Source: Ruminococcus sp. YE71 (GTDB taxonomy: Bacteria; Bacillota; Clostridia; Oscillospirales; Ruminococcaceae). From it: a stretch of 64,000 bases of DNA. The notes below the pieces were generated by a model. That model was given only the letters and a program-made list of their open reading frames with translations, was not told where the DNA came from and ran no database searches. The stretch spans positions 17,513 through 81,512 of the forward strand of contig NZ_FPIR01000020.1 of NCBI RefSeq assembly GCF_900119155.1, in the 5' to 3' direction. Below are positions 14,516 to 54,276 of this stretch, one piece after another (the first letter of the stretch is position 1; every line of letters begins with the position of its first letter). The translations under genes and the position numbers were made by a program.

Positions 14516-14565
14516 AAGCCGCAGGCATAACTCGGTCAGGCTGTTATATCATTACATATTGAGAG

Positions 14566-14593
14566 AGTCCGCCTTTTCGGGGCGGACTTTTTG
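14566..14593 (+). terminator. terminator of the cyclase gene
   Basis: AGTCCGCC / GGCGGACT stem with 7-nt loop and a T run. Confidence 0.85.
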
Positions 14594-14720
14594 CTGTATT
14601 CGGCTCTGTGACTTCCTACAAATAAGATGTCGGTTTTTTGTGTATCATACCGAGAATGGTCGCCGTAACGTGTGATTAAATATTCAAGTATACGAAAATA
14701 TCTTTGTAACAAAAAGTACA

Positions 14721-14749
14721 TTGAATCACAAATACAAAAGTAGTATAAT
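14721..14749 (+). promoter_or_regulatory. promoter of the SulP gene
   Basis: TTGAAT (14721-14726), 17 nt, TATAAT (14744-14749). The leader holds a short GCCGAC/GTCGGC hairpin (14761-14782). Confidence 0.78.
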
Positions 14750-14812
14750 CTTATTTGTCCGCCGACTTTTTTGGCTGTCGGCAAAGATTTTTTATAAACG
14801 GGGTCAGAGAAT

Positions 14813-16495: not shown

Positions 16496-16505
16496 TAATG
16501 ACAGC

Positions 16506-16541
16506 TTGCCGTCCGGACAGTCCGGGCGGTATTTGCTTTTT
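16506..16541 (+). terminator. terminator of the SulP gene
   Basis: GCCGTCCGGAC pairs with GTCCGGGCGGT with a wobble, followed by ATTTGCTTTTT. Confidence 0.7.
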
Positions 16542-16561
16542 ATGGGAGATAGTGGTATAAT
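16533..16561 (+). promoter_or_regulatory. promoter of the ECF sigma operon
   Basis: TTGCTT (16533-16538), 17 nt, TATAAT (16556-16561), overlapping the tail of the preceding terminator. Confidence 0.6.
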
Positions 16562-16701
16562 GTCTTTACGGGCTGATACCGAAGTTGATTGTATATTATG
16601 ACGAAAAGGCACTTTGATTTTTGTTCATTCCTACAAAGTTGCCGCTTTTCTGTCAGAAATGACCTTTACCAAACAATTAGTTAGCAGAGGAGGCGAGAGA
16701 T

Positions 16702-17208
16702 ATGGCACAAAATAATACCGACGATCTGACCCGGGTGATCGAACGGTACAGAGAGCTTATCTACGGTCTGGCGCTCGCGGAGACAAACTGCCGCGCCGAC
16801 GCCGATGACGTCTATCAGGAAGTCTTTCTGCTGTACTATACGAAAGATCTGGTCTTTGAGGACGAAAAGGCGAGACGTTCATGGCTCATACGTGCCTGCA
16901 TCAACATCTCGCGGACCTGCAACAAAAGCTCGTGGTACCGAAAACGCTCGGACGATGATCTTGACTCGATCCCCGACGAACGCTCCTGTCGGACGCCTGC
17001 ACAGCAGGAACTGTGGGAAGCGGTGAAGTCGCTGAAGCCGAAATACCGTACCGCTGTGTATATGTACTACTTTGAGAACATACCGTCCGCAGAGATAGCC
17101 GAGACCCTCGGCATATCGGAGGACGCACTTAGAACAAGACTTTCGCGCGCGAGAAAGATCTTGAAAGAAAAAATGAGGGAGAGTGGTTATTTTGAAAAAG
17201 CTATGTGA
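16702..17208 (+). CDS. ECF-type RNA polymerase sigma factor
   Basis: 168 residues with sigma-2 (DADDVYQEVFLLYYT, SWLIRACINISRTCNKSSWYRK) and sigma-4 (LKPKYRTAVYMYYFENIPSAEIAETLGISEDALRTRLSRARKIL, split here only for naming) regions, the typical size of group IV sigma factors. GGAGGCGAGAG precedes the ATG. The downstream gene overlaps its end and encodes a single-span membrane protein, the usual arrangement for an anti-sigma partner. No obvious autoregulated ECF promoter was identified; a sigma-A promoter lies upstream. Confidence 0.9.
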   Translation: MAQNNTDDLTRVIERYRELIYGLALAETNCRADADDVYQEVFLLYYTKDLVFEDEKARRSWLIRACINISRTCNKSSWYRKRSDDDLDSIPDERSCRTPAQQELWEAVKSLKPKYRTAVYMYYFENIPSAEIAETLGISEDALRTRLSRARKILKEKMRESGYFEKAM

Positions 17209-39756: not shown

Positions 39757-40020
39757 AAGCGGCGCTTTTATAAAATTGTATAAATTGCTTTAAATATCCA
39801 AGGAAATGCGTTTCTTTTATACAAAATATGCAAATGCTGAAAGAGGGGACAACTCGAACAGAAGATCGATGAGTGCTGTGAGTACGACCGTGTGAGCAAG
39901 TAACGCCGCAAAAGCCGCAGACGAAATCTGCGGCTCGATACATATGCGAGAATTTCAGCTTGTCGGAAGCATTAACATCATGGGTATCTGACTTCTAAGA
40001 GAAAAAACAGATTATCAAAC

Positions 40021-40080: not shown

Positions 40081-40131
40081 TGCAGGTGAAGGGACTTGAA
40101 CCCATACGACCTTGCGATCACTAGCACCTGA
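40081..40131 (-). pseudogene. 3' part of tRNA-Leu(CAG), left junction of the integrated element
   Basis: 51 nt identical to the 3' end of the intact tRNA at 52658-52741, stopping in the anticodon loop at the GA core (40130-40131). The remaining 33 nt are at 52859-52891, and 51+33 equals the 84-nt gene exactly. Confidence 0.93.
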
Positions 40132-40164
40132 GGGTGGTGTAACGACAGGGTGTTTATCACAAAT

Positions 40165-40194
40165 GCGGCATACCCGACGAGGCAGGTATGCCGC
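40165..40194 (-). terminator. GGTATGCCG-type terminator (copy 1)
   Basis: GCGGCATACC / GGTATGCCGC stem downstream of the XRE gene. Same hairpin at 41457-41485 and 43215-43243. Confidence 0.75.
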
Positions 40195-40199
40195 AAGCA

Positions 40200-41348
40200 T
40201 CAATATAGATTCCTAATTCTTTCCTTGACTTTTTCAAATCTCTCATTACCGTTAAGCGCCGAATAGCACTCCTTGCTCAGCATATTCTCAAGAATTATCT
40301 GCGCATGCGAACGTGAATCTGCGGTGTGCCATTTCGTATCTCCTACAGAACCCCTGACAAGCGGTGAGGTGTAGGTATACTTTTCGGGCAGAGCATAGAA
40401 TTTTTCAAGATAATCGCAAGCCTTTTCGCTGTAAGCAAGAGCTTCATCAAGTCTGTCGAGCGAGATCAAGTCGGGGACTATCTGCGAAAAATACTCTATG
40501 GGAAGTGTGCGGTAAAAAAGCCCGTGGTCGTCCTCATTAAAGATCAGCGCCTCGATGTCCTCTATCACCTGCATGTACTTTATCCGTTCCTCAGCGGAAA
40601 AGTATGGCGCGCATTTTTCATCTTCACTTTCTATATCCCATTCATCGCCGTTTTTTATCATTCGCCAGATGTTCCACTGCAAAGACCCTGCTGAGGAACG
40701 AATTCGTCTGCCAAGATAATCGAGCCGCTCTTCGCCGCGCAATGCCCAGATCATATATTCCTCTTTGCAGAACATCTCGCTGGGGAGACTCTCAAATATC
40801 GCCTTGCCCTTTTCCAGGTCGTGCATATTGTCGCAGTAGTGAAAGCCAAGTCTCGCTTTAACTTCTATGCGGATATTATCGTCAGTACAGCCCTTTAGGA
40901 TATGCTCTCCCAAATCAATTATTTCCTGCTTGTATTTCTCCTGATTTAACTGCCAGTCGGGGATATTTCCCGTATCATCACCCGATACGAACAGCGCATA
41001 CATCAGATTATTCATCAGCTCATAGCTGTGGGGAAACTCCTTTAGTCCCGCTCGGGCGATCTCTATGCAGTCGTTCACTCTGCCGCTTTTTATTGCCGTT
41101 TCAAAGTCGTTCATATACTGCACGTGGAGAGCTTTGCGCTTCTCGCTGTCCACACCCAGCAGAGTTTCAATGCTCACACCGAAATACTCCGCAATTATCG
41201 GCAGAAGTGATATATCCGGGCTTGTCTGACCGTTCTCCCAGCGACTGACTGCCTGTGTCGATACCGAGAAAGCCTCGGCAGCCTGCTCCTGCATAAGCTC
41301 GCGCTCACGGCGCAGCTTCTTGAATACTTCGCTGAAATTTATGTTCAT
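40200..41348 (-). CDS. XRE-family transcriptional regulator with long C-terminal domain
   Basis: 382 residues. An HTH_3 DNA-binding domain at 5-60 (FKKLRRERELMQEQAAEAF, VSTQAVSRWENGQTSPDIS) is followed by a helical, TPR-like region rich in W, Y and acidic residues, the usual architecture of Rgg/SinR-related or peptide-sensing regulators. GGAGGTAAC precedes the ATG. It lies just inside the left end of the integrated element with its own promoter. Likely regulates element genes or the neighbouring sigma factor; targets unknown. Confidence 0.82.
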   Translation of the reverse strand: MNINFSEVFKKLRRERELMQEQAAEAFSVSTQAVSRWENGQTSPDISLLPIIAEYFGVSIETLLGVDSEKRKALHVQYMNDFETAIKSGRVNDCIEIARAGLKEFPHSYELMNNLMYALFVSGDDTGNIPDWQLNQEKYKQEIIDLGEHILKGCTDDNIRIEVKARLGFHYCDNMHDLEKGKAIFESLPSEMFCKEEYMIWALRGEERLDYLGRRIRSSAGSLQWNIWRMIKNGDEWDIESEDEKCAPYFSAEERIKYMQVIEDIEALIFNEDDHGLFYRTLPIEYFSQIVPDLISLDRLDEALAYSEKACDYLEKFYALPEKYTYTSPLVRGSVGDTKWHTADSRSHAQIILENMLSKECYSALNGNERFEKVKERIRNLY

Positions 41349-41389
41349 AAGTGTTACCTCCGTGTGTTTATTCCGACGTCGTTGATATT

Positions 41390-41417
41390 ATTATAACACA
41401 TTTTGGGCGAAGGTCAA
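41390..41417 (-). promoter_or_regulatory. promoter of the XRE regulator
   Basis: Minus strand TTGACC (41417-41412), 16 nt, TATAAT (41395-41390). Confidence 0.7.
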
Positions 41418-41456
41418 TCACTTATTTGATGATAAAAATTCAACTAAAGTGAAAAT

Positions 41457-41485
41457 CGGCATACCCACACAAGGTAGGTATGCCG
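41457..41485 (-). terminator. GGTATGCCG-type terminator (copy 2)
   Basis: CGGCATACC / GGTATGCCG stem just after the sigma-like gene, then ATTTTCA on the minus strand. Confidence 0.78.
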
Positions 41486-41494
41486 CATTCATTA

Positions 41495-43117
41495 TTATTT
41501 ATTTGCCGGAAACAGCACAGAAAATACGCTCTTTTTCTGAATGTCTGCAAGCGGCTCCAGCTGACCGCTTTCAAGCAGCTTTTCGATCACTCTGGGCAGC
41601 ATGGTCATAGCGCCAAGGATATTGGTGTAAAACTCTCTGATAAGACCGTGCATATGCTTTGGGTGTTTTTTGAGATTGAATTCAATGAATTTCTTATCGA
41701 CTTCGGTACACATAGCCCTTATCTCTTCGGGAACGACGATCTTATCATCACAATATGTGTACAAAATATCGGATAGTTTATCCGTATCTGTCCTTACAAT
41801 CACGGGCTGGGGTCTGTCCTCAAAAACATAGCCCTTGTCAATGAGCCTTTTGTATTCATCGGGTGAGAGACTCTCCTTTCCCCGGTTGATGAATTTTGTC
41901 AGCGAGTCCCAGTCGGTATCAAGATTATCACGCCAGCGCCCCTGCCTGTCGGCATAGCAGCAGTCCACCTGAAGGCTTGCGTTTCTGGTCGGGAGGTCTC
42001 CGTCTATGCTCCCCCTTGTCATATCACCGCAGCTCCAGTATTTGTATTCCTTCGGCTTGAAGCTGCCGTCTGCAACGCCTGCATATGCCACGAAACAGCC
42101 GCCGTCGGGGCGTTCAACTGCATACCTGCTCACATCGCTACTGTTTATCCTCAGCTTTCTTATGGCTAACATCACAAGGCTGTACTTCATAAAGTTCAGA
42201 TCATCACCGTCGCAGGTCATTCCCCAGCGGTCAGGTGATGTCTCGAAATTGGCAAAGATCTTCGGGATATACTTTTCTGCAAGCACGCTCGCCGCCTCAT
42301 CAAATATCCTGTCACGCTCTTCGTCGCCATCTGTATCACGCAGATCGTCGATCAGCATATTGGTGCGGTACTTTGGGTTGCTTGAATTATCCAGCTTGTC
42401 GATAAACCCGAACCTGACCAGCGCCACAAGCTGATCGCATACATACACCTGCGGAACACCTATCTCACGGGATATTTCCTCCAAGGTTTTCGGCTCGTGA
42501 TAGCAAGCCCATGCGATGTTCATCTTGATAGCTGAGTCAAAAATATCGGCGGTATCACCCTTGCTGCCTGTGTAACCGTTGTGCCCCATATCGGTAAAAT
42601 ATATCGGGTTGATCTCTAAGTTCTTTTCGATGTTCATTTCAATTCCCTCTTTCAGCTTTTCTCTTGCGTCAGACAAGTGCCATTTTACGGTACCGGCGGA
42701 TATTTCAAGCCTTTTTGCGATTTCGGCAACAGTCAGCTTGTCATAATAGTGCATATAGATGACAGCCCTCTGCCGCCCCGAAAGATAGCCTATCTCGCGC
42801 CTTAAAAGCTGCTGCATTGCAAGCTCGTCCTCGCTGTTATCCTCGGGGGCGGCTATCTCCATATTGCTTATGTCCTCAAACTGTCTGCCCGTTTCGAGCT
42901 TATGTACGAACTTTGCCCATACGTTTCCGGCTATCCTGTAAACATAGCCGTCAAGGTTGGCGATATCTCCGCGCTTCAGAAAAGCGCTGTACACCTCACA
43001 CATTATGTCAGATGCAAGCTCTTGTGCCTGATCTACATTCCTTGTCTTGTCAAGCGCAAAGCCGAATATCCTGTCTCGGTACTCAAATATTGTCTTGTCT
43101 GCTGTTTTCTTATCCAT
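41495..43117 (-). CDS. ECF sigma factor fused to a large C-terminal domain
   Basis: 540 residues. Residues 1-160 are a group IV sigma factor: sigma-2 (ELASDIMCEVYSAFLKRG, YVYRIAGNVWAKF) and sigma-4 (LSGRQRAVIYMHYYDKLTV, AEIAKRLEISAGTVKWHLSD). The remaining 370 residues begin with a winged-helix-like segment (EPKTLEEISREIGVPQVYVCDQLVALVRFGF) and continue as an unrecognised globular region. This is far longer than ordinary ECFs (about 170-200), so it is probably a one-piece sensor-sigma without separate anti-sigma. GGAGGG precedes ATG 43117. Related proteins are common in Ruminococcaceae as far as I recall. Confidence 0.8.
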   Translation of the reverse strand: MDKKTADKTIFEYRDRIFGFALDKTRNVDQAQELASDIMCEVYSAFLKRGDIANLDGYVYRIAGNVWAKFVHKLETGRQFEDISNMEIAAPEDNSEDELAMQQLLRREIGYLSGRQRAVIYMHYYDKLTVAEIAKRLEISAGTVKWHLSDAREKLKEGIEMNIEKNLEINPIYFTDMGHNGYTGSKGDTADIFDSAIKMNIAWACYHEPKTLEEISREIGVPQVYVCDQLVALVRFGFIDKLDNSSNPKYRTNMLIDDLRDTDGDEERDRIFDEAASVLAEKYIPKIFANFETSPDRWGMTCDGDDLNFMKYSLVMLAIRKLRINSSDVSRYAVERPDGGCFVAYAGVADGSFKPKEYKYWSCGDMTRGSIDGDLPTRNASLQVDCCYADRQGRWRDNLDTDWDSLTKFINRGKESLSPDEYKRLIDKGYVFEDRPQPVIVRTDTDKLSDILYTYCDDKIVVPEEIRAMCTEVDKKFIEFNLKKHPKHMHGLIREFYTNILGAMTMLPRVIEKLLESGQLEPLADIQKKSVFSVLFPANK

Positions 43118-43214
43118 TCTGAAAGCCCTCCGGAAGCGTTTTCATATATATAGTGCGGAGAAATCCGAAAAGGTTGGGTGGGTTTTATTATATAATAATT
43201 TTTTTTCAAGAAAA

Positions 43215-43243
43215 CGGCATACCCAAATAAGGCAGGTATGCCG
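43215..43243 (-). terminator. GGTATGCCG-type terminator (copy 3)
   Basis: CGGCATACC / GGTATGCCG stem followed on the minus strand by TTTTCTTG, just past the broken frame at 43260. Confidence 0.78.
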
Positions 43244-43259
43244 AAATCACTTAATCTTT

Positions 43260-43425
43260 TCAGACCCAATATATCTCATAGCTTTCTGCCGTAGTTGACT
43301 TCGGCACATAACCGCTCTTGCCAAGCACATTCGCCTTATCAGCAGTATCTCACTGCTCATGTTGGTAATATCATCACGCTTCACCGATTCATAGGCGGGC
43401 AAAAGCAGCACCTCGTTATTTTCAT
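43260..43425 (-). pseudogene. frameshifted gene remnant downstream of the ASCH gene
   Basis: Minus strand reads GYENNEVLLLPAYESVKRDD then ITNMSSEILL in one frame and, after a frameshift near 43330, DKANVLGKSGYVPKSTTAES and YEIYWV-stop in another. It looks like the C-terminal end of a decayed protein of unknown family. No start is present. Confidence 0.45.
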
Positions 43426-43766
43426 AACCGTCCGATCTCTATTCCCACGACCCCATATTCCTGCTGACGTTCTCTGGAATAATATGCTTCCATATCCTTT
43501 GGCGCTGCGGTCTGAACAGTCTGCTCATTGTACCCGCATTTCAGCAGCGGCAATTTGTCATACAGCGCTTCAAACGAATCAAAAATGTGAAGCCCTACAA
43601 CCTTGACTTCAAGCGTTTCATCGTTGCTGTTGTTATTGGTAAAAATGATCGTATCGCCAATTTTGATCTTTCTGCGCTTTTCATCGTACAGACGCAGCTC
43701 GATGGTCTTTGTGCCGTTTCTGATGTTTTCAAACGGGGACGGGTTCAGGTTCATTTTGTGTGTCAT
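43422..43766 (-). CDS. ASCH-domain protein
   Basis: 114 residues, essentially one ASCH domain: NLNPSPFENIRNGTKTIELRLYDE (first part of the PUA-like fold), KIKIGDTIIFTNN and VVGIEIGRL. ASCH proteins bind RNA or modified nucleosides; some are cytidine amidohydrolases. Its ATG overlaps the stop of a 31-codon frame (ATGA), so the two are translationally coupled. Within a mobile element a regulatory or defence-linked role is possible but not shown. Confidence 0.8.
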   Translation of the reverse strand: MTHKMNLNPSPFENIRNGTKTIELRLYDEKRRKIKIGDTIIFTNNNSNDETLEVKVVGLHIFDSFEALYDKLPLLKCGYNEQTVQTAAPKDMEAYYSRERQQEYGVVGIEIGRL

Positions 43767-43858
43767 ATCAGTTTCTCCAGTTCCTCAAGCAGCCTGCGTT
43801 TCATATCGGCAAGCTGTTCCTTGCTCGGTCTGTTGTCATCGGAATACATATTCTCCAT
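43763..43858 (-). CDS. 31-residue ORF coupled to the ASCH gene
   Basis: Minus strand ATG 43858 gives MENMYSDDNRPSKEQLADMK and RRLLEELEKLI, a charged helical peptide ending in a 4-nt ATGA overlap with the ASCH start. The same frame stays open upstream (GNNGRGPVWWYP) to near the promoter, so it may be the tail of a truncated longer protein. Weak ribosome site. Confidence 0.5.
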   Translation of the reverse strand: MENMYSDDNRPSKEQLADMKRRLLEELEKLI

Positions 43859-43923
43859 AGGATACCACCAGACAGGACCTCTGCCATTGTTGCCATAGTT
43901 CTCAATATCTCCGCTTACAATTA

Positions 43924-43952
43924 TTATAGCACACCGCGAACGTCAAATCAAT
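43924..43952 (-). promoter_or_regulatory. promoter of the small ORF-ASCH pair
   Basis: Minus strand TTGATT (43952-43947), 17 nt, TATAAT (43929-43924). Confidence 0.65.
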
Positions 43953-43967
43953 AGATAGAGAAAAATG

Positions 43968-44460
43968 TCCTGCAAGATAAAAAATAAATGTCCGGCGATT
44001 TTATACCTTTTCTGAAAATCGGCACATATAAATAATGTAAAGCGATATTTCCCCGAACAAACCACAAGCGCTCGGGGCACTCTCTATTTCCATAAATCCG
44101 TCTTACAGTGCATACAAGCCGCAAAAAGCCCGCAAAACTGTCGTTTTAGCAGTAATGCGCCCTGGGAAACTGTTCTTACAAAGTGCTTACAAATGCCGCC
44201 TTGTAATGCGTGTAAAAAATGTCCTGCGGGACGAAAATTAAATGTTCAGACTTTTTATGCCTTTTCTCACAAACTGCACATATAGATAATGGAAAGCAAA
44301 TTTGCCTCGAACACAGCAACGTGTTCGGGGCATTTTTTCGCAGAACTGTTCCTGCAAGGTGCTTTCATCTGCCGTGTAATGCGATTTGTAGGTCGCAGTA
44401 ATGCGGATGTAATGCGGACGAAAGTGTTCCAAATGCCCGAAAACACTTGCTTTTCTGCGT
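43968..44460. repeat. diverged tandem duplication with GTAATGCG motifs, possible origin
   Basis: Two about 245-bp copies, beginning ATGTCCTGC (near 43969 and 44219), share the order ATGTCCTGC, TAAATGT, CCTTTTCT, CACATATA, ATAATG and a G/C hairpin. Copy 2's hairpin CCTCGAACAC / GTGTTCGGGG is followed by six T, copy 1's CCCCGA/TCGGGG by none. GTAATGCG occurs at 44152, 44203, 44376, 44398 and 44409. No credible gene; lies just before the DUF927-like gene. Confidence 0.65.
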
Positions 44461-44505
44461 TTTGTAATACTGTAATACGAAAAGAAAAATAAGGAGGTCG
44501 ATCTA

Positions 44506-45519
44506 TTGAACGAACAAAATTCACGCTACAATGACACGATTTACAACGAACCGTACATTGTCAAGGACGGCTGTCTCTACGAGCAGGTCACGATCAAAGA
44601 CCAGCTCGTAGATGTCAAGTTCGCAGACTTTGTGCCGGTGCTGAAAGCAGAGATCACGCACGATGATGGCATTGAACAGCGCAAACTGTTCCTCATCGCT
44701 GCGACGTACAAAACAGGACTGGCGCTGCCGGAGCAGACTGTTTCTGCTGACGAGATGCAGTCGATGAAGTGGCTGCTGCAACGCTGGGAGCAATACGGCG
44801 CCGTCGCCCCGAAGCAAAATGTCCTCGCAAAAGTCTGCCACGCGATCATGCAGACCAAGCAGCCGGTGCGTAACGAAACGGTCTTCTCGCAGACCGGCTG
44901 GCGCAAGATCGACGGCGAGTGGGTGTTCCTGATGCCGCGCCCCGACAATGACCTCACGGTCGAACTGCAAGGCAAGCTGAGAAGTTACAACTTCACAAAT
45001 CCATGCAGCACTGATGGCTTCCTTCACGACTATGAGCAGCTCACCGCGCAAGAAGTCAGCGGACATACAAAAGTGTTTGATAGCGTTCTACTGCAAAGTT
45101 GTTCACTCAACGCGGAGATCATCGTCAACGAGAATCCGACCACGCGTTTCTGTGAGAAGCTGCGGAGTCTCCTCGACAGTGGTCGATGCTATGTCGAAAC
45201 TCGCGGTCTCGAAGCGCAGCCGCGACTGAAGAACTGCATCGGCTTGCAGGACAGCGATCACTACTATCTGTTCGCCGACGCAGCGCATTCAGAGGTGCGA
45301 AAGCTCTGCACCGAGCAGGGTGAGCACTTAACGATAAGCAAAAATGAGCTGCTCCGTCAGCTGCGCAGCGAGGGTCTGCTGCTGTCCCGAACTAGTCGCA
45401 ACACTATTTCGATACGCGACAACTCCAACACGGTCGTGAACGTGGCGATGCTCGACAAGCGACAGATAGAACAGCGATTGTCGGGCGATTTGTACCCTCC
45501 GAGCGATGAGGTCGGGTAA
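44506..45519 (+). CDS. DUF927-like helicase-associated protein, probably internally deleted
   Basis: 337 residues from TTG 44506, fixed by AAGGAGG 8 nt upstream. The first about 185 residues (KAEITHDDGIEQRKLFLIAA, LLQRWEQYGAVAPKQNVLAK, VFSQTGWRKIDGEWVFLMP) resemble the N-terminal DUF927 part of mobile-element primase-helicases. At about residue 187 the sequence jumps to what looks like the C-terminal end of such a protein (NPTTRFCEKLRSLLDSGRCY, ISKNELLRQLRSEGLLLSRT). The ATPase core expected between them (Walker A GxxxGKS) is absent, so a large in-frame deletion is likely and helicase activity is not expected. Confidence 0.6.
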   Translation: MNEQNSRYNDTIYNEPYIVKDGCLYEQVTIKDQLVDVKFADFVPVLKAEITHDDGIEQRKLFLIAATYKTGLALPEQTVSADEMQSMKWLLQRWEQYGAVAPKQNVLAKVCHAIMQTKQPVRNETVFSQTGWRKIDGEWVFLMPRPDNDLTVELQGKLRSYNFTNPCSTDGFLHDYEQLTAQEVSGHTKVFDSVLLQSCSLNAEIIVNENPTTRFCEKLRSLLDSGRCYVETRGLEAQPRLKNCIGLQDSDHYYLFADAAHSEVRKLCTEQGEHLTISKNELLRQLRSEGLLLSRTSRNTISIRDNSNTVVNVAMLDKRQIEQRLSGDLYPPSDEVG

Positions 45520-45880
45520 ACAGCCGAGCGCCGACGATAAACGCCACACAAGCGATCTGTCGGCGTTTGTGGGCGCGGTACGGCGAATGAAAAAATGAAC
45601 GGAGATGAGCAAAAATGATTCAATAAACGGCAGTCGGCATAATGCACAAACCACCCGGCTCAATGGCAGTGAAATCGCTAATTAGTAGAGTTGCAGGTTA
45701 AAGCAGCGTGAACGCTGCACTCACAGCGGACGGCAAAGCCGACCGCAATTCGAGGGTTTTGTGCAGTATTTCAAGGGGTTGTGGGTTTGGAATGTGTTAC
45801 CGCAGGAGGGTAATGCAACAGACTACCGACCGAATTATCAGCGAAAAAGAAAAGTCGGACAGTATTAAGGAGGGATTTCG
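45520..45880. other. intergenic region with short hairpins
   Basis: Holds GCAGCGT-GA-ACGCTGC (near 45702) and GCGG-A-CGGC-AAA-GCCG-A-CCGC (near 45726) hairpins. A 40-codon frame from ATG 45813 with GGAGGG upstream overlaps the next gene and was not called. Confidence 0.5.
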
Positions 45881-46287
45881 ATGGCAAACAAGGAAAAGCA
45901 GGCGGTATGGCTCTATCCCGACACCAAAGAGCTGATGACCACCCACATGGCGGCGGCGAATGCAAAATCGCAGAGCGACTTCATCGAGAAGGCTATAAAG
46001 TTCTACGCAGGCTATCTCGATTGCCGCTCGGACAACATGATGGAATATCTCGGCGCAACTGTGGCGGCTGTCATGGACGGAATCGTCAAGGGCAGCGAAC
46101 AGCGCATCAGCAGGGCGTTGTTCAAGCTGGCGGTCGAGTCGGCGATGCAGTCGCATATCATCGCGGCACTCAACGATGTCGATGAGAAGACAATCGACGA
46201 CCTGCGCGGATGTGCATCAACGACGTGCGCAAGACCAACGGCATCATCGATTTCAAAAGCGCCTACAGATATCAGAGGGAGGACTGA
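45881..46287 (+). pseudogene. frameshifted RHH/plasmid-type small protein
   Basis: ATG 45881 after AAGGAGG. MANKEKQAVWLYPDTKELMT through NDVDEKTIDDLRG is in frame, then one base is missing near 46209: the correct continuation in another frame is MCINDVRKTNGIIDFKSAYR and YQRED-stop at 46287. It is a paralogue of the next gene (same length and pattern VxLYPDTKELM...SxSDFIEKAIKFY), a family seen beside recombinases in mobile elements. The N-terminus looks like a ribbon-helix-helix accessory DNA-binding protein. Either decayed or a sequencing error. Confidence 0.7.
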
Positions 46288-46289
46288 AC

Positions 46290-46712
46290 ATGGAGAAGAT
46301 AAGAACCGGAATTTATGCGTCAGGCGAAGTGCTTGCGGAGTGCGATGACTACTGTGCCAAGCATGAAATAAGCCGCTCGGAACTGATAGAGCAGTCATTG
46401 AAATTGTTTCTTGCAACAAGAGTGATTGCTGACAAGTGTGATGTGCTTGTACCAGAACTCGCGGAGTGCATCGCTCACGCCAGCGATGACGGGATAACAA
46501 AAATCTCGAAAGGTTTGTTCCGATACGCAGTCGAAGTCGAGATGCTGATAGCAATCCTCGCGGACACATTCGATGTCAGCAAGAACGAGCTGAAGGAAAT
46601 CCGCAGAGAAGCGGTCAACAATGTTCGCAGGACAAGAGGAAAAATCAATCTCGATGACCTCATCACTCGCAACTTAGCAGAGGGGATAACAGACGAGGAC
46701 TCCTATGAATAG
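46290..46712 (+). CDS. ribbon-helix-helix-like accessory protein
   Basis: 140 residues from ATG 46290 (GGGAGGAC upstream). N-terminal RTGIYASGEVLAECDDYCAK, HEISRSELIEQSLKLFL is a short beta strand plus two helices, as in CopG/MobC-type DNA-binding proteins. The rest is helical with charged tail. It is homologous to the frameshifted gene just before it, 2 nt away. Likely a DNA-binding accessory factor for the element; partner unknown. Confidence 0.65.
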   Translation: MEKIRTGIYASGEVLAECDDYCAKHEISRSELIEQSLKLFLATRVIADKCDVLVPELAECIAHASDDGITKISKGLFRYAVEVEMLIAILADTFDVSKNELKEIRREAVNNVRRTRGKINLDDLITRNLAEGITDEDSYE

Positions 46713-46723
46713 AGTACGCTCAT

Positions 46724-46932
46724 ACCGAAACGGTATTGAGTTTAAGTACCGTTTCAGTAGCCGAAAGATGCAACTTCAAATCGAGACTGCACCTGCTGTC
46801 GTGAAACACTATGACAGATAACTCAGGGACAGAACGCTACCGAGTTCCCAAAATGGGAATTCGGTACTATCCCGTCATCGAAAGGGGCGAACAAACCGTT
46901 CAGTCCCGATGGGGTACAGTTATCGTACCCCA
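46724..46932. other. three consecutive inverted repeats, candidate oriT/control region
   Basis: ACCGAAACGGTA / TACCGTTTCAGT (46724-46758), TACCGAGTTCCCA / TGGGAATTCGGTA with AAA loop (46838-46866) and TGGGGTAC / GTACCCCA (46910-46932). All three lie in a 335-bp noncoding stretch between the accessory genes and the recombinase. Confidence 0.65.
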
Positions 46933-47047
46933 CAGGTGTTTCCATAACGGCAACTGCTGGTGAGATATATAAACGAAAGGACAGATAATAAATGAACAAC
47001 TCAAATCACATCCGCACAACAACCGCAACCCAAAGGAGCGTGATCCA

Positions 47048-47230
47048 ATGCCGAGAAAGGCAGAAACACCGAACATCAATTCAGCAACTTTCAGATACAA
47101 CGGAGACAAAAAGTCCTTCGATATTTTCATGGAGGGTCTGATACGAAGCTATCTCGAGCAGGGTAGTGTGCCCAAATCAGCGGCAGAGGCTTCTGTCGAA
47201 AAGGTAGAACTTTCTGAAAATTCCGCGTGA
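47048..47230 (+). CDS. 60-residue protein preceding the recombinase
   Basis: ATG 47048 after AAAGGAG. MPRKAETPNINSATFRYNGD, KKSFDIFMEGLIRSYLEQG, then an acidic tail. Similar short proteins with a TFRYNGDKKSFDxFM-like segment sit before serine recombinases in Firmicutes elements as I recall; role not established, possibly a recombination directionality factor. The overlapping frame at 46992 was not chosen. Confidence 0.6.
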   Translation: MPRKAETPNINSATFRYNGDKKSFDIFMEGLIRSYLEQGSVPKSAAEASVEKVELSENSA

Positions 47231-47318
47231 AAGCTGGATATGTGATAACGTTCGTGGTATGGTGTAGTTGCGCCGGGGCGACCTGCGCATCACACCAAGT
47301 TTCAGAAAGGGGAATCAC

Positions 47319-48896
47319 ATGAAAAGAGCATGGCTATATTTCAGGCTGTCGCGTGACGAGGATCAGGAGATGAACAGCCTGCAAAACCAGAAGCAGATCA
47401 TCGTTGACTATGCGGAGAAAAACGGCTACGAGATCGTCGGCGAGAGCTTCGATGACAATGTCACCGGTATGACCTTCGAGCGTGATGGCATCATCAAGAT
47501 CGAGGAGGCTGTTGACAGCGGACTCATCGACACGGTACTTGTCAAGGACATGAGTAGATTGGGACGTCATAGAACTCAGACCGCGCTGTTCCTCGACTAT
47601 CTCACCGAGAACAAGGTCAACATGATCTCGGTCACCGAGGGCATCGACAGCTCCAACGAAAACGACGACCTCATCATCGGCTTCAAGCAGATCGTCAACG
47701 ATCTGTACTGCAAGGACATCAGCCGCAAGGTCAGCGCCGGAGTTCGTCAGAAACAGAAGGACAAAGGCTTGATCGAGACCCTGCCGATGGGTTACTACAA
47801 GGATAAAAACACCAACAAAATCTGCATCGACAGCGAAGCCGCAGAAATAATCCGCGAGGTCTATGCGCTGTATATCGAAGGCTACGGCATGACGACGATA
47901 GCAAAAACGCTGAACGAGCGCGGCGTCAAATCGCCCGAGTATTATATGCGCCGCCGTCTTGCCGACTGGAAACCCGATATCAGCAAGAAATACCTGTGGG
48001 TTCAGACGGCGGTCAAGCGTATCCTCACAAACGAACTGTACATCGGAGTGATGGTCAACCACAAGACTGTCTCCAACAAAATTCGCAAGACCAAAACTTT
48101 CATACCATCCGAAGAACAGTTCCGCCACCCAAACTTCTGTGAACCGATAATCGAGGAAAGCGTCTGGAACACCGTGCAGTTCCTGATGACGCAGAGGGCT
48201 GATACAAGACCGCGGGCATCGGGCGGCAGAAAAATACACCGCTACTGCGGTCTGATAAAATGCGCCGAATGCGGGGCGAGCCTTATCGCTCAGACCCGCA
48301 GATGGAACGGCTCGGAGTACGTCGAGTACAGCTGCAACAGCAACCACCGCTACGGCAAAAGCTACTGCACACCGCACCGGGTCCGCGAAAGTCAGCTCGA
48401 CGAGCTTATCGTTGACGAAGTCCGGAGACTGCAAGAAAATATCCTTGCCGAAGCGGAAAAGTACGACAGCATCGTCCGCGAGTGGAACAAGAATAAGCCG
48501 AAATACGAGCGGCAGATTGCACAGCATGAGTCTAAGATCAACGGTCTGAACCGCGAGATCGAGGGTTTGATAATCGACCGCATGAACGACCGCGCCCACA
48601 GCGATCTCTATAACAAGATGATTGCGGACAGAGAGAAGCAGATTGCCGATCTCCGGCAGAAGATCGACGAGTGCCGCGAGTTCGACCGTGTGAGCAAGGA
48701 ACGCCGAAAAAGCCTCACCAAGACCTCGGAGGTCATCGAGGAAATACTGGAGGAGGGGAATATCAGCGACGCACACCTGCGAATGCTGGTTCGGCAGGTG
48801 ACCATCCACCAGAACGGGGACAAGTCCCTTGACATCAACTTCGAGATGAACGGTAACTGGAACGGCTCGGTGGCGGTGTACGTCAAGCCCGAGTAA
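47319..48896 (+). CDS. large serine recombinase (integrase) of the 40.1-52.9 kb element
   Basis: 525 residues. The resolvase catalytic domain spans 1-150, with the nucleophile in YFRLSRDED (Ser10) and arginines in VKDMSRLGRHR. The recombinase domain spans about 160-290 (EAAEIIREVYALYIEGYGM), the zinc ribbon about 310-365 (CGLIKCAECGASL, CNSNHRYGKSYC), then a coiled coil about 375-480. AAGGGG 6 nt before ATG 47319 sets the start. The reconstructed attP with a 2-bp core fits this enzyme class. It lies mid-element rather than at one end, unlike many phage integrases. Confidence 0.9.
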   Translation: MKRAWLYFRLSRDEDQEMNSLQNQKQIIVDYAEKNGYEIVGESFDDNVTGMTFERDGIIKIEEAVDSGLIDTVLVKDMSRLGRHRTQTALFLDYLTENKVNMISVTEGIDSSNENDDLIIGFKQIVNDLYCKDISRKVSAGVRQKQKDKGLIETLPMGYYKDKNTNKICIDSEAAEIIREVYALYIEGYGMTTIAKTLNERGVKSPEYYMRRRLADWKPDISKKYLWVQTAVKRILTNELYIGVMVNHKTVSNKIRKTKTFIPSEEQFRHPNFCEPIIEESVWNTVQFLMTQRADTRPRASGGRKIHRYCGLIKCAECGASLIAQTRRWNGSEYVEYSCNSNHRYGKSYCTPHRVRESQLDELIVDEVRRLQENILAEAEKYDSIVREWNKNKPKYERQIAQHESKINGLNREIEGLIIDRMNDRAHSDLYNKMIADREKQIADLRQKIDECREFDRVSKERRKSLTKTSEVIEEILEEGNISDAHLRMLVRQVTIHQNGDKSLDINFEMNGNWNGSVAVYVKPE

Positions 48897-48962
48897 CCGC
48901 AAAAAAGCCACAGACAGAAGATGAATGCTCATAAATACATTTTGTGATTTGAAAATATGGTT

Positions 48963-48983
48963 GCGTAACCTTATCGGTTACGC
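48963..48983 (+). terminator. hairpin after the recombinase gene
   Basis: GCGTAACC-TTATC-GGTTACGC perfect stem, followed by TGCCTTTCTCTT; the T tract is interrupted. Confidence 0.6.
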
Positions 48984-49067
48984 TGCCTTTCTCTTCACAA
49001 AAATGATTAAGCTCTTGTACGGGCTGGAAGAGTGCTTGTTCATGAATCGTCTAATTTAGTAATAGTG

Positions 49068-49096
49068 TTGCTTTTTCATCATGACTATGCTATAAT
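49068..49096 (+). promoter_or_regulatory. promoter of mcrBC
   Basis: TTGCTT (49068-49073), 17 nt, TATAAT (49091-49096). Confidence 0.75.
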
Positions 49097-49155
49097 GATA
49101 AGAGAAACTATCTATTATTGACAAATGCAATTCATTTTGAGGAGGATAGAATATC

Positions 49156-51315
49156 GTGGATAATCAATACACATGGATACCATTTTATATGGAACTGGCG
49201 GATAAGTTGAAAAACTATTCGGATAACCGTTCGGAGCTGATTCAGATGATTACTGATGTATATGATAAAATAGGCATTCCTTTGCCCACGCTTGAAAAGG
49301 ATGGAATGCATCCGGTTGATCTTGATCCTTTTACAGTGTTCGGGCTTTTCAATAAAAAAATCAAGGAAAAGACGAGAATCGCAATTTGCACTGCATTGGC
49401 AGAGCAATTACATATCACTGCTGGTATTCCTAATGATTTTAACGGGATTCCTATCCTGAATAATTTGAGTTCTACCTTTTACTGTTTTGTTGGTGAACGA
49501 GGCGAACAGGATATTGATAACCTCTGGAAGATTTTCATTGCTGCTTTGAACTATGCTGACGAACAGTCAGAATCAAATCTATCTGAATTTTGTAAGTACT
49601 ACGATATTGTAAAAAAGCAGAAAGGCATACGCCGTAATTTATCAATAGGGCTTTTCTGGATCCGTCCGTATCATTATTTGAATCTGGACTCGTGCAATAC
49701 TGATTTTCTCAAAAACAGCAATTCAATCCCAGACAATGTAAGAAAAATGGTTTCTGCATATAAGGGAGGATTGCCTTCAGCGGATGCATATTTGCAGTTA
49801 TGTGCAGTATGCAAAGAAGCCTTTCAGACTGCCGGACTTATATATACCAGCTTTCCCTCTATGTCTTATTATGCATGGTCGCAAAGCAACAATAGCACCA
49901 CATCTTATAATTATGATGCTGAATCAGATTTGAATAATGATAATAATTCTGATGCACCTGTCATCTGGAAAATAAGCCATGGTACAAACAGTACCGGTGT
50001 TCCGGAAGAATTAAGAGAAACGCTCGAAAAAAGAAAAGTAGTTACAGTGCATCGTTACACAAAAGCCCTGGCTACATCTAATATTTCACAGGGCGAAAGT
50101 TTTATGACACAGATCAAAAGCGGTGACTATTTCTATCTGTGTTATGGCGCTGAGATAGTATTATTTGGACAATTCTTGAATGATTTACCAAAGCCAAATC
50201 CCGAAATGTCAGAACAGTACAATGCTGAAAACTGGTATGAAAGAGAATATAAGTTGATAGCAGAATCAAAGGATAGGAACAAATATAACGGTGTAAAAAA
50301 ATGGTGGACTTCAAATTACAACTCAACTTGTGTGAAAGTTACTGAAAATGCACTTTTTGAAGAACTGATCTTAGAGCCTTATTTTGGATTGAAACTATCT
50401 GATTTGAAAACCGGCGAATATCATGAACTATATACAAAAGAGGAATTCTTAAATGACGTATTCATCACCGAATCCGAATACGACAAGCTTCGTTCTCTCG
50501 TCCTCAGAAAGAAAAATATCATCTTGCAGGGTGCGCCCGGTGTCGGAAAGACTTTCTCTGCAAAACGTCTGGCGTATTCTGTTATTGGCGAGAAGAACGA
50601 AAGCCGTATCTGTATGGTGCAGTTCCACCAGAACTATTCCTATGAGGATTTCATCATGGGATACCGCCCGAATGACAGCGGCGGATTTGAACTGCAAAGT
50701 GGTGTGTTTTATAACTTCTGCATCAGATGCCAAGAAAACCCCAACAAACCGTATTTCTTTATCATTGACGAGATCAATCGAGGTAACCTCAGCAAGATAT
50801 TCGGTGAACTGCTTATGCTGATCGAGACTGACAAGCGCGGAGAAAGGCACAAGCTAAATCTGGTCTATGGCGGAACGGCTTTCTATATCCCCGAAAATCT
50901 GCATATCATCGGCATGATGAACACCGCCGACCGCAGTCTTGCCATGATAGATTACGCTCTCCGCAGACGTTTTAGCTTCTATACGATGCAGCCTGCTTTT
51001 GAAAATGAGGACAAGAACGGCTTTGGTAATTATACATTGGATATTTCTTGTAAGATGTATCATACTGTTATCGCTAAAATCAGAGAGCTGAATAGTGTCA
51101 TTCGTAAGGATACTACTCTCGGCAAAGGCTTTGAGATCGGTCACAGCTATTTTGCTCCCGAAAACATCTCTGTTATTGATGATGAGTGGGTGCGTAATGT
51201 GGTCGAATATGAGATCATTCCGCTTATTGAAGAATACTGGTTCGATAACGATAAAAAGCTCGATGAATGGACAAAGGCTCTGTATCAGGTATTAGGTGAG
51301 GAATATGACGGTTGA
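49156..51315 (+). CDS. mcrB: McrB-type GTPase of a type IV restriction system
   Basis: 719 residues from GTG 49156 (GGAGG upstream). The N-terminal about 430 residues hold the target-recognition part (an EVE/PUA-like IKSGDYFYLCYGAEIVLFGQF segment near 320), then an AAA+ domain: Walker A LQGAPGVGKTFSAKRLAY, MVQFHQNYSYEDFIMGYRP, Walker B PYFFIIDEINRGNLSKIFGE, the McrB GTP motif MNTADRS and sensor arginines ALRRRFSF. It binds modified DNA and powers translocation with McrC. It overlaps mcrC by 11 nt. Lower GC than the recombinase. Which base modification is read cannot be told. Confidence 0.92.
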   Translation: MDNQYTWIPFYMELADKLKNYSDNRSELIQMITDVYDKIGIPLPTLEKDGMHPVDLDPFTVFGLFNKKIKEKTRIAICTALAEQLHITAGIPNDFNGIPILNNLSSTFYCFVGERGEQDIDNLWKIFIAALNYADEQSESNLSEFCKYYDIVKKQKGIRRNLSIGLFWIRPYHYLNLDSCNTDFLKNSNSIPDNVRKMVSAYKGGLPSADAYLQLCAVCKEAFQTAGLIYTSFPSMSYYAWSQSNNSTTSYNYDAESDLNNDNNSDAPVIWKISHGTNSTGVPEELRETLEKRKVVTVHRYTKALATSNISQGESFMTQIKSGDYFYLCYGAEIVLFGQFLNDLPKPNPEMSEQYNAENWYEREYKLIAESKDRNKYNGVKKWWTSNYNSTCVKVTENALFEELILEPYFGLKLSDLKTGEYHELYTKEEFLNDVFITESEYDKLRSLVLRKKNIILQGAPGVGKTFSAKRLAYSVIGEKNESRICMVQFHQNYSYEDFIMGYRPNDSGGFELQSGVFYNFCIRCQENPNKPYFFIIDEINRGNLSKIFGELLMLIETDKRGERHKLNLVYGGTAFYIPENLHIIGMMNTADRSLAMIDYALRRRFSFYTMQPAFENEDKNGFGNYTLDISCKMYHTVIAKIRELNSVIRKDTTLGKGFEIGHSYFAPENISVIDDEWVRNVVEYEIIPLIEEYWFDNDKKLDEWTKALYQVLGEEYDG

Positions 51316-52366
51316 TAAGGGCATTTTTATCCAGAACATCTACTATATGCTGTCCTATGCTTTTCAAATTTTGAAGCAGGAGGACTACCGTAATGTCGCT
51401 GGGGAAAAGTTCGACAAGATACATGACCTCTTTGCGGCGATATTGGAAAAAGGCGTTTCTCGTCAGTTGAAACAGGGCTTATATCGTGAATATGTCCCGA
51501 TGCAGGAAAAACTTTCTGTTATGCGTGGAAAGCTGAACATGAACAGCACGATACAGCTGAAGGTTCAGCAAAAGCAGAAACTATCCTGCGAATTTGATGA
51601 GTTCTCCGAGGACAACCTCTATAATCAGATACTGAAAGTCACGATACACAGGCTTATCCGAGCAGAGGACGTTGCACCGGAACGGAAGCAGGCACTCAAA
51701 AAGCTGATTGTATTCTTTGGAAATGTCCAACTGATACAGACCGATCATATCGCATGGAACAGGCTCATCTATCAGCGAAATAACCGCAACTATGAGCTGC
51801 TGCTCAATATCTGCTATCTTGTGCTGAAACATCTATTGCAGACCACTGATGATGGACAGTATAAACTTATTGAGTTTTCGGATGAGCAAATGAATCTGCT
51901 TTTTCAGCGTTTTGTTTTTGAATATTTTAATCAGGAGCATAAAGAACTATCGGTTTCAGCACCAACTATGAAGTGGAGTGAGGAATCTGAAGATAAGAAT
52001 TCATTGATCAGTTTTCTTCCGATAATGAAAACCGATATCGTGTTGAAAGATAAGCATAGTGATAAAACATTGATAATCGACACTAAGTATTACAAAAAGA
52101 TATTTAATGAAAACTTCGGAAAACAGACTATTAATCCAGCACACCTCTATCAGATATTCGCCTATGTAAAGAACATGGATAAAGAAAATACCGGCAATGT
52201 GTCGGGGCTTCTGCTTTATGCCAAGACCGAGGACGAGATGTTTCCGGAGGGCGAGCCATTTGTGATCGGTGGGAATAGTATCGGGGCGAGGACGCTGGAT
52301 CTGAATGTTTCTTTTGATAAATTGAGGATACAACTTGACAACATAGCGGAAGAATGCTTTAAATAA
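51305..52366 (+). CDS. mcrC: McrC-type nuclease of a type IV restriction system
   Basis: 353 residues from ATG 51305. McrC features: N-terminal KGIFIQNIYYMLSYAFQIL, a helical middle, and the PD-(D/E)xK catalytic site TDIVLKDKHSDKTLIIDTKYY near residues 245-265 (D...DTKYYK). With McrB it cleaves foreign DNA carrying modified bases. Overlap with mcrB means coupled translation. Cargo of the mobile element, last gene before its right end. Confidence 0.9.
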   Translation: MTVDKGIFIQNIYYMLSYAFQILKQEDYRNVAGEKFDKIHDLFAAILEKGVSRQLKQGLYREYVPMQEKLSVMRGKLNMNSTIQLKVQQKQKLSCEFDEFSEDNLYNQILKVTIHRLIRAEDVAPERKQALKKLIVFFGNVQLIQTDHIAWNRLIYQRNNRNYELLLNICYLVLKHLLQTTDDGQYKLIEFSDEQMNLLFQRFVFEYFNQEHKELSVSAPTMKWSEESEDKNSLISFLPIMKTDIVLKDKHSDKTLIIDTKYYKKIFNENFGKQTINPAHLYQIFAYVKNMDKENTGNVSGLLLYAKTEDEMFPEGEPFVIGGNSIGARTLDLNVSFDKLRIQLDNIAEECFK

Positions 52367-52612
52367 ATAGTAGGCTAATTCAGAAAACTTTATGATGCTA
52401 CTTACAGTATTGTTATATTGGTACTGACCTAAACATCTGCGGCTCGATACATATACAAACATTTTAGCTTGTCAGACGCGCAGGCTGTCTCGTGAAACGA
52501 CAGCACCAACGAGCGTAAATACGCCGTAATTACGCGGCTTTGAAAAACCCTCGGCAGACGCACTACCGTCTCAAAAAAAGGCTTCATAGATAATAAGAGT
52601 GTTTGATAGACA

Positions 52613-52650
52613 AAGAAAAACCCTCGTAAACAACGTGTTTACGAGGGTTT
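52613..52650 (-). terminator. terminator of the intact tRNA-Leu
   Basis: AAACCCTCGTAAAC / GTTTACGAGGGTTT with TTTTTCTTT on the minus strand. Confidence 0.88.
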
Positions 52651-52657
52651 CAAGTAG

Positions 52658-52741
52658 TGCAGGTGAAGGGACTTGAACCCATACGACCTTGCGATCACTA
52701 GCACCTGAAGCTAGCGCGTCTGCCGATTCCGCCACACCTGC
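52658..52741 (-). tRNA. tRNA-Leu(CAG), intact copy carried by the element
   Basis: 84 nt, class II with a long variable arm. Acceptor GCAGGTG/CACCTGC, discriminator A, anticodon arm CTAGC-TTCAGGT-GCTAG with CAG at 52707-52705, T arm GGGTTCAAGTCCC. CCA is not encoded. Identical to the gene rebuilt from the two split halves. It lies 115 bp inside the right end. Confidence 0.93.
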
Positions 52742-52856
52742 ATATAAGAATTTGAAATTTTCACTCGGCTCAAATCCAGTTACCGAGGCGAGATGCTTTC
52801 GCACCGATTCGCATTTTGCAAGCTGACTAAATAACCGCACTGTCGTTACGCCACCC

Positions 52857-52891
52857 GAAGCTAGCGCGTCTGCCGATTCCGCCACACCTGC
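52857..52891 (-). pseudogene. 5' part of the interrupted host tRNA-Leu(CAG), right junction
   Basis: 35 nt from the 5' end GCAGGTGTGGCGGAATCGGC to the anticodon loop, ending in the GA core (52857-52858). Still preceded by the host promoter. Confidence 0.93.
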
Positions 52892-52923
52892 GTTATTTTT
52901 GTTCCGTTCCGAAGAACATAACT

Positions 52924-52952
52924 ATTATACCACAAGATTTTCGGTTTGTCAA
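52924..52952 (-). promoter_or_regulatory. host tRNA-Leu promoter
   Basis: Minus strand TTGACA (52952-52947), 17 nt, TATAAT (52929-52924). It now reads through the 5' tRNA fragment and the element end into the intact copy about 115 bp on. Confidence 0.9.
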
Positions 52953-52990
52953 CCCCTTTTTTAGATTTTTTTTGAAAAAATTGAAAAAAA

Positions 52991-53019
52991 TCACGGACAC
53001 AGCATTCCTGCGTCCGTGA
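52991..53019 (-). terminator. terminator of the phosphofructokinase gene
   Basis: TCACGGAC...GTCCGTGA hairpin followed on the minus strand by TTTTTTTCAATTTTTT. Confidence 0.88.
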
Positions 53020-53024
53020 AACGA

Positions 53025-54236
53025 TCATTTCAGCTTGAAATGCAGCGGCATACCGTTGCGCATCGCGATGTTTACCTCGCCCTGTATCAGCGGCAGGAAG
53101 TACTTTATCGCTTCGTCCGAGATGCCGTTGCCGGCGGAGTTTATCCACTCGCGGGGGAAGAACTTCTCCTTGTTTGCCAGCAGGGAAGTGTCCGCACTCT
53201 CGATGGTCACCACATACGGCTTGTCCGACAGTCTGTGGAATACCATTGTTCTGCCAGTCTCGCCGCGCATCGCCGCCTTGACTGCCTCAGCGCCGATAGC
53301 CTCGGCCTCGTCGATGTCGGTCTTGGAGCAGATGTGGCTCGAACATCTCTGCATTACGTTCAGCTCGATGGAGCGCACCTTGCAGCCGATGTTGTCGCGT
53401 ACCAGCTGTTCCAGCGCCTTGCCGATGCCCGAGAGGTACTTGTGACCGAAGTTGTCCACCGCGCCGCTGCGCATATCGTCGCCGTCCTTCAGCTCAACGC
53501 CTTCGGATACCGCCACGATCAGCGCCATATGCTTCGCACGCTCAGCTCTCACGTCCTCAAGGAACTTCTCCGCCGAGAACTCACATTCGGGCAGGTAGAT
53601 GAGGTGCGGTGCGATCTCGTCATTTGCGCGGAGCACACAGGTCGAAGCGGTCAGCCAGCCTGCGTGTCTGCCCATGATCTCGATAATGGTTATCGAGTCG
53701 ATGGAGTAAACGCTTGAATCGCGGATGATCTCCTGTACCGTCGCGGTGACGTACTTCGCAGCCGAACCGAATCCCGGGGTGTGGTCGGTGACGGGCAGGT
53801 CGTTGTCGATGGTCTTGGGCACGCCGATGAAGCGCACTCCCGAGCCTATCTTCTTTGCGTATTCCGACAGCTTCTGCACGGTGTCCATCGAGTCGTTGCC
53901 GCCGATGTAGAAGAATGCTTCTATGCGGTGCTTGTCGAGAGTCGAGAATATCTTCTCGTAGAGCTGTACCTCGCTGTCGTCGTCCAGAGGCGGCAGCTTG
54001 AAGCGGCAGGAGCCGAGCACCGTCGAAGGTGTCTGACGGAGAAGCTCCATGTCCTCATTTGTGCGGATGACGCGCTTGAGGTCGAGCAGTTCGTCCTTGA
54101 TGATACCCTCGATACCGCAGCGCGAGCCGAATACCGCGTCGATCTCGGGAGTTTTCAGAGCCTGCCTGAACACCCCGACCAGCGAGGCGTTTATCGCGCA
54201 GGTAGGTCCTCCCGACTGAGCGATCACTATGTTCAT
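53025..54236 (-). CDS. 6-phosphofructokinase, probably pyrophosphate-dependent
   Basis: 403 residues, glycolytic enzyme phosphorylating fructose 6-phosphate. N-terminal IVIAQSGGPTCAINASL glycine loop, GGNDSMDT at the phosphate-donor site, catalytic GVPKTIDNDLPVTDHTPGFGSA and the MGRHAGWL substrate motif are present. GGNDS instead of the ATP-enzyme GGDGS, together with the length, points to the PPi-dependent group; the call is by motif only. ATG 54236 is preferred over the frame start 54263. Monocistronic with own promoter and terminator. Confidence 0.85.
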   Translation of the reverse strand: MNIVIAQSGGPTCAINASLVGVFRQALKTPEIDAVFGSRCGIEGIIKDELLDLKRVIRTNEDMELLRQTPSTVLGSCRFKLPPLDDDSEVQLYEKIFSTLDKHRIEAFFYIGGNDSMDTVQKLSEYAKKIGSGVRFIGVPKTIDNDLPVTDHTPGFGSAAKYVTATVQEIIRDSSVYSIDSITIIEIMGRHAGWLTASTCVLRANDEIAPHLIYLPECEFSAEKFLEDVRAERAKHMALIVAVSEGVELKDGDDMRSGAVDNFGHKYLSGIGKALEQLVRDNIGCKVRSIELNVMQRCSSHICSKTDIDEAEAIGAEAVKAAMRGETGRTMVFHRLSDKPYVVTIESADTSLLANKEKFFPREWINSAGNGISDEAIKYFLPLIQGEVNIAMRNGMPLHFKLK

Positions 54237-54276
54237 ATGTTCCCAACCTTTCGTATATTTCAATGCATTATCTCTA

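Follow-up and report, generated by a model that had tools for sequence, protein, structure and literature searches.

How can a bacterium keep a working copy of a core tRNA gene after a mobile element has cut that gene in its anticodon loop? The question is raised by a 12.7 kb element (positions 40132–52856) in a contig of Ruminococcus sp. YE71 (NZ_FPIR01000020.1). We analysed a 64,000 nt stretch of this contig, hereafter called the window. The element separates the two halves of a minus-strand tRNA-Leu(CAG) gene. Of this displaced host gene, nt 34–84 (the 3' half) are located at 40081–40131 and nt 1–35 (the 5' half) at 52857–52891. Joining 40081–40131 to 52859–52891 gave 84 nt with a 100% match to an intact gene at 52658–52741 (minus strand), which begins 115 bp inside the right end of the element and is also a complete fresh target site. 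The only overlap between the halves is GA (TC on the tRNA strand), which corresponds to gene nt 34–35, that is U33 and the first anticodon base. The left copy of this predicted crossover dinucleotide is at 40130–40131 (minus strand) and the right copy is included in the 5' half; relatives have it at the same position. ARAGORN found a single tRNA in the window, so neither junction rebuilds the host tRNA. The element copy was also the sole intact match to tRNA-Leu(CAG) in the genome: besides the two halves, the next best matches reached 75% and 71%, and a pattern search of the genome returned the tRNA copy of the element and the dead half, and nothing else.

Serine integrases generally use a 2-bp core between paired half-sites. 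The joined ends of the element, CTGTCGTTACGCCACCC followed by GA and GGGTGGTGTAACGACAG, are self-complementary at 32 of 36 positions and form a near-palindrome. The predicted arms of the attachment site of the element (attP) are 19 nt long each: the left arm (CCCTGTCGTTACACCACCC on the tRNA strand) at 40132–40150 and the right arm (GGGTGGCGTAACGACAGTG on the tRNA strand) at 52838–52856, both given on the minus strand. They pair at 17 of 19 positions around the asymmetric dinucleotide, and none of 20,000 shuffles gave a better result. A large serine recombinase, the predicted integrase, is encoded at 47319–48896 on the plus strand and has Resolvase, Recombinase and Zn-ribbon domains; the longest open reading frame starts at 47268, and 47310–48893 was used for searches. 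The N-terminal domain aligned with TnpX (2mhc), the sole PDB sequence at E 1e-10 or better. Among 7999 candidate integrase relatives that were scored, 3612 proteins had an E value of 1e-120 or better.

A promoter scan of 52550–53050 returned a single site, TTGACA-N17-TATAAT at 52924–52952, with 12 of 12 positions matching the consensus. It is read on the minus strand from 52952 to 52924, lies outside the element and faces the 5' half and then the intact tRNA. The leader of 115 bp between the right end and the tRNA contained no such site in the window. The carried tRNA has its own terminator (52651–52617, minus strand). The 45-bp stretches downstream of the host 3' half (39926–39970) and of the carried tRNA (52435–52479) are 84% identical, which hints at a close relative of the host as the source of the tRNA unit.

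We consider it very likely that the host tRNA-Leu(CAG) gene was split at U33 and the first anticodon base by an element that its serine integrase probably inserted, and that the intact copy was thereby placed behind the host promoter, which would drive the carried tRNA. A first-pass annotation of the window had proposed the exact 84-nt gene from halves overlapping by GA, the near-palindromic attP, the large serine recombinase, the identical tRNA 115 bp inside the right end with its own terminator, and the native promoter aimed at it, and our analysis confirmed these features. The anatomy that it described, apparently that of a serine-integrase element destroying and replacing its tRNA target behind the host promoter, recurs in relatives.

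One scan of bacterial genomes yielded 43 integrase relatives with 84% to 42% identity, mostly labelled Ruminococcus together with other Clostridia. The integrase alignment covered at least 300 amino acids in 39 of the 43 loci, and the 35 of those with at least 700 bp to the right formed the counted set. Most loci stem from metagenome assemblies; Ruminococcus bicirculans 80/3 is a finished chromosome. An intact tRNA-Leu on the minus strand, opposite to the integrase strand, was present within 7 kb in 29/35 loci. Three more loci (L054, L056 and L065) have an intact tRNA-Leu 11–22 kb away, a distance at which the link to the integrase is less sure. L070 and L073 contain a 3' half preceded by a left arm in place of the intact tRNA, and we concluded from this that the carried tRNA had itself been cut by another element. 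The sequence of the remaining locus, L064, ends too soon for classification (1/35). A tRNA-Leu was found within 1.5 kb on the right in 24/35 family loci; among other serine-recombinase loci, whose flanks of at most 1.5 kb were shorter than those of most family loci, 0/42 had a Leu(CAG) or Leu(TAG) tRNA and 4/42 had some other tRNA. Since the arrangement recurs in relatives, chance is excluded as its source. Even when the integrase lies elsewhere, the tRNA keeps its place at the end next to the promoter: in S. variabile (OY725838) the 5' half is at 16507, the intact tRNA at 16680 and the 3' half at 55788, with the integrase about 27 kb from the tRNA. L047 is labelled Alistipes, groups with the Ruminococcus elements and is probably a misbinned contig. 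Intact pattern matches per genome numbered at most one in 17 of 18 genomes (none in G002 and G108) and two in G012. The G012 contig L151 (G012:C60) contains no such integrase and carries two identical tandem tRNA-Leu(CAG) genes at 13571–13808.

The predicted targets of the family are Leu(CAG), Leu(TAG) and apparently Leu(GAG) genes. Of 59 halves, 56 had the junction at gene nt 34–35, where CAG loci read TC and TAG loci TT; two of the 61 halves called by the script (L044 -3535 and L062 -1776, which have no arm) were dropped before counting. The three others are each the outermost half of their locus (L055, L065 and L068); an indel shifts those of L065 and L068. The locus L164 (G089:C1, around 154131), with 42% integrase identity, has a tRNA 3' half, apparently from Leu(GAG), whose core is TG. 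Across the 80 kb examined there, ARAGORN detected no tRNA of the Leu(GAG) type; what it did find was an intact Leu(CAG) gene immediately after the 3' half. From the TC, TT and TG cores across the Leu isoacceptors we concluded that the crossover core consists of U33 and the wobble base. Carried and displaced tRNA were of the same isoacceptor in the 11 cases in which both a 3' half and a carried tRNA were found. Arm symmetry reached 12–17 of 19 positions in 10/10 elements tested (shuffling p 5e-5 to 8e-4; L040 was left out because its right arm reads N), and the arm sequences differ widely. The CAG and TAG labels alternate on the integrase tree, with four changes counted for TAG; retargeting thus took place repeatedly.

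The 96 nt from the right arm to the carried tRNA (52742–52837, minus strand) form a structured leader. A fold consisting of a hairpin and a likely H-type pseudoknot is conserved in much of the CAG clade, and was seen in the window and in L037, L038, L041, L044, L047, L048, L049, L152 and L158. Eight of the 18 pairs were changed on both sides, a number reached by 1 of 500 shuffles; sliding by one column still gave 7, and as the structure was derived from the same alignment as the covariation count, this is support and not proof. At gathering scores, no Rfam family matched the leader in the six loci compared, and with E up to 5 the window stretch gave weak hits below the cut-off only. One guess is that the leader may prevent pairing, within a single transcript, between the dead 5' half and the 3' part of the intact tRNA. 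The distance from the innermost junction to the tRNA was at most 138 bp in 28/32 loci. In a circular form, the element's own copy of the target site (attB) would be a near neighbour of attP, in direct orientation, and we speculate that the short distance might keep the integrase from a suicidal attP x attB event.

Parts of this arrangement were also found outside complete elements. A model of the leader was searched in 119 family genomes and matched the genome of the window and four others. All four matches were at a tRNA-Leu(CAG), three of them with a spent half; in G132 the leader match precedes the spent half and not the intact gene. In the nearly complete genome G174, the 56 kb downstream contained neither an integrase relative nor a separate 3' half; in G126 and G135 the downstream sequence is too short to judge element loss. 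L078 and L158 show a lone tRNA with mere remnants of an integrase. G003 was considered as an empty site beside the same phosphofructokinase-like gene that flanks the window element; its leader is element-like, and it was read as a scar. In some genomes in which no element was found, tRNA, leader and scar thus appear to persist.

Relatives reduced to scars would also fit a window element that is a dead relic, immobile and with the tRNA alone functional. We regard this as unlikely, though it deserves more weight than the other alternatives considered below. The gene at 44506–45519 (plus strand) is related to a longer DUF927-type protein of L044 (6993–8801) and apparently represents an internally deleted form, and Pfam detected no relaxase among the ten window proteins scanned; the integrase frame, however, is open, its catalytic-domain motif aligns with TnpX, and both ends of the element are intact and symmetric.

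It is improbable that the carried tRNA is expressed from a promoter in its own leader and that the host promoter is irrelevant. Such an own promoter was described for the tRNA of mycobacteriophage Fionnbharth (PMC10865867). Within the family, the leader of L057, upstream of the tRNA at 17972–18056, contains its own TTGACA-N17-TATAAT site, unlike the window, so promoter capture is not universal. Against a general role of own promoters, the window leader lacks a promoter-like site, the 12/12 promoter lies outside the element, and the tRNA keeps its promoter-side place even in S. variabile with its distant integrase.

If the carried tRNA were itself a target, 5' halves should accumulate on the promoter side. 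Upstream of the intact tRNA, a spent 5' half was present in 32/34 loci, and 13/34 have two to ten of them: three in R. bicirculans 80/3, four in L045 and ten in L056. Such rows could also have arisen by tandem duplication of one junction, and the near-constant spacing within a locus (162, 162 and 163 bp in R. bicirculans) would fit this. We nevertheless judge separate arrivals far more plausible, and a duplicated junction a poor explanation. The four dead halves of L045 are identical (35/35), while its arms and spacers match at 69–77 of 84 positions (8–18% difference); in copies of a dead junction, halves and spacers would have drifted equally, so each half probably belonged to a working gene, under selection, up to the time of the cut. 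The units in L041, L055, L056, L057 and L068 are of different tRNA types, with several kinds of tRNA-Leu(TAG) mixed in L056. In addition, 3' halves match particular 5' halves. We compared the acceptor and anticodon stems in six arrays and the window, picked for having a 3' half and informative types, and in 7/7 of these loci the 3' half formed 12 of 12 Watson-Crick pairs with at least one 5' half.

In five of the six arrays the 3' half did not fit the carried tRNA, and we concluded that a different tRNA had taken the place of the host gene there. Innermost half and carried tRNA differed by at least 3 of 33 nt in 12/29 loci and were identical in 10; L036, L057 and L067 were dropped from the 32 loci, since indels or decay inflate their mismatches. 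It is such relatives that allow a carried tRNA to be told from a duplicated host gene. A host tandem duplication, with the element landing in one copy and carrying nothing, is very hard to reconcile with an intact tRNA that lies between the two halves beside an attP arm, recurs in 32/35 relatives, often differs from the innermost half and was itself cut in L070 and L073, even though the two tRNAs of the window are identical, their terminators are similar with about 45 bp beyond also matching, and G012 has its tandem pair.

The steps behind this arrangement may be as follows. The integrase would join attP, in which paired arms flank TC, to the anticodon stem-loop of the host gene as attB. The host transcript would then cross the dead 5' half and the leader before it reaches the carried tRNA, on which the cell would come to depend. 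With the carried gene as a complete attB, every insertion would also restore the target site. The newest tRNA would be the entry point of a later element, whose arrival would add another dead 5' half towards the promoter, and the carried tRNA could remain as the gene of the host after an element is gone. We think it probable that this amounts to a self-renewing site by tRNA hostage-taking, in which the element brings both a rescue gene and the next attB. The locus would work as a ratchet: a core tRNA-Leu would be replaced repeatedly by foreign tRNAs that outlast their elements, the dead 5' halves would stand in order of arrival as a readable history of invasion (ten in one genome), and the tRNA-Leu genes of these gut bacteria would partly be of mobile-element origin.

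Several observations, besides the L057 leader, weigh against this interpretation. Carried and displaced tRNA are identical in the window, which taken alone would fit a host duplication. L058 and L072 lack a 5' half: a promoter-like site is followed immediately by an intact tRNA-Leu and then by the integrase, and recombination may have removed the halves. R. bicirculans has one 3' half in 100 kb and three 5' halves, and such a shortage of 3' halves needs a deletion step. Older element bodies are mostly missing; they may have been removed by composite excision or by deletions between the repeated 3' halves. An innermost leader of 210–387 bp, as in 4 of 32 loci, counts against the idea of a short spacing. 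As tRNA-Leu(UAG) might read CUG, the carried tRNA may not be essential. The first-pass annotation had named two further traces to look for in relatives. An uninterrupted tRNA-Leu(CAG) with both window flanks joined was not found, and the left-flank gene was absent from the 68 stretches searched; for circular forms, the pattern of the attP junction had one match in 396 family genomes, with no tRNA nearby, which we took as chance. Viral contigs likewise contained no integrase relative.

The other genes of the element are mostly cargo. On the minus strand these are an HTH_3 regulator (40200–41348, by Pfam), a sigma-70 region 4 protein (41495–43117) and an ASCH-domain protein (43422–43766). Small proteins are encoded as well. 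One of them, on the plus strand (45881–46348), recurs in 13 distinct loci of the family; where its place was checked it lies upstream of the integrase, and it is a possible directionality or relaxosome factor. Behind the integrase follow an AAA_5 ATPase (49156–51315), McrB-like by its place before the next gene, and a McrC-like protein (51296–52366, Pfam McrBC). The best PADLOC model for the ATPase was a type II restriction enzyme, and the McrC-like protein matched no PADLOC family. The host flank gene at 53025–54263 (minus strand) has no family call; from its sequence we take it to be phosphofructokinase-like. Phage structural families were detected neither among the ten window proteins with Pfam nor among the six scanned with PHROGs. 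Among the 15 phage records listed, the integrase shares 25–32% identity (at most 31.6%), and all 614 records were below 60%. By the families found, the element has neither a tyrosine integrase nor the genes of a temperate phage. The related locus L126 of R. flavefaciens Y1 (2075–17924) encodes BsuBI/PstI restriction genes, AbiH, a reverse transcriptase, an AAA_25/DnaB ATPase and a MobA/VirD2-type relaxase.

Genomic islands can accumulate at one tRNA site. The recombinase of the window has its Resolvase, Recombinase and Zn-ribbon domains in common with the TnpX (Tn4451) kind, from which it differs by a target in the anticodon loop that is tied to a carried tRNA. The element resembles integrative and mobilizable elements with defence cargo, as the R. 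flavefaciens Y1 member has a relaxase and defence genes and the window has McrBC-like genes; it differs from them in its attachment strategy and in that no relaxase was found among the ten proteins scanned. The islands treated by Islander (PMC4383910) likewise target tRNA genes; they use tyrosine integrases and the gene is rebuilt from island sequence, whereas the window element destroys its target and supplies a whole gene.

The closest likeness is to tRNA-dependent lysogeny, for which PMC10865867 gives experimental evidence: phages with tyrosine integrases, among them Fionnbharth, LeBron and Gaia, destroy a host tRNA gene and supply a cognate tRNA of their own, and Gaia uses tRNA-Leu like the window element. 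The first-pass annotation had called the supply of a whole tRNA unusual. The precedent in mycobacteriophages (PMC10865867) corrects this claim. Searches of openly licensed PMC texts yielded no serine-integrase case and no rows of tRNA halves. The survey in PMC10865867 covered phages with tyrosine integrases, and the actinobacteriophages described there are whole phages with 8–17 bp cores. The window element, in contrast, is a small integrative element of Clostridia with a serine recombinase, a 2-bp core at U33/N34, its tRNA behind the host promoter, and rows of spent halves in the family. While the logic is shared with the tRNA-dependent phages, several features appear to be new here: a serine integrase in this role, the capture of the host promoter, a site that renews itself and keeps a record of scars, the lasting replacement of a core tRNA and the non-phage carrier.

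A second class of recombinases thus seems to have reached the same trick as the tRNA-dependent phages. To what the consulted part of PMC10865867 describes, the family would add the use of a host promoter, a target that is never exhausted and a sequential record of scars. The integrases appear to recognise the anticodon loops of tRNA-Leu genes, with a core that follows the wobble base, and may be of use for genome engineering in Clostridia. The repeated invasion of one core gene by mobile DNA, and the horizontal replacement of a core tRNA gene, become testable in these bacteria.

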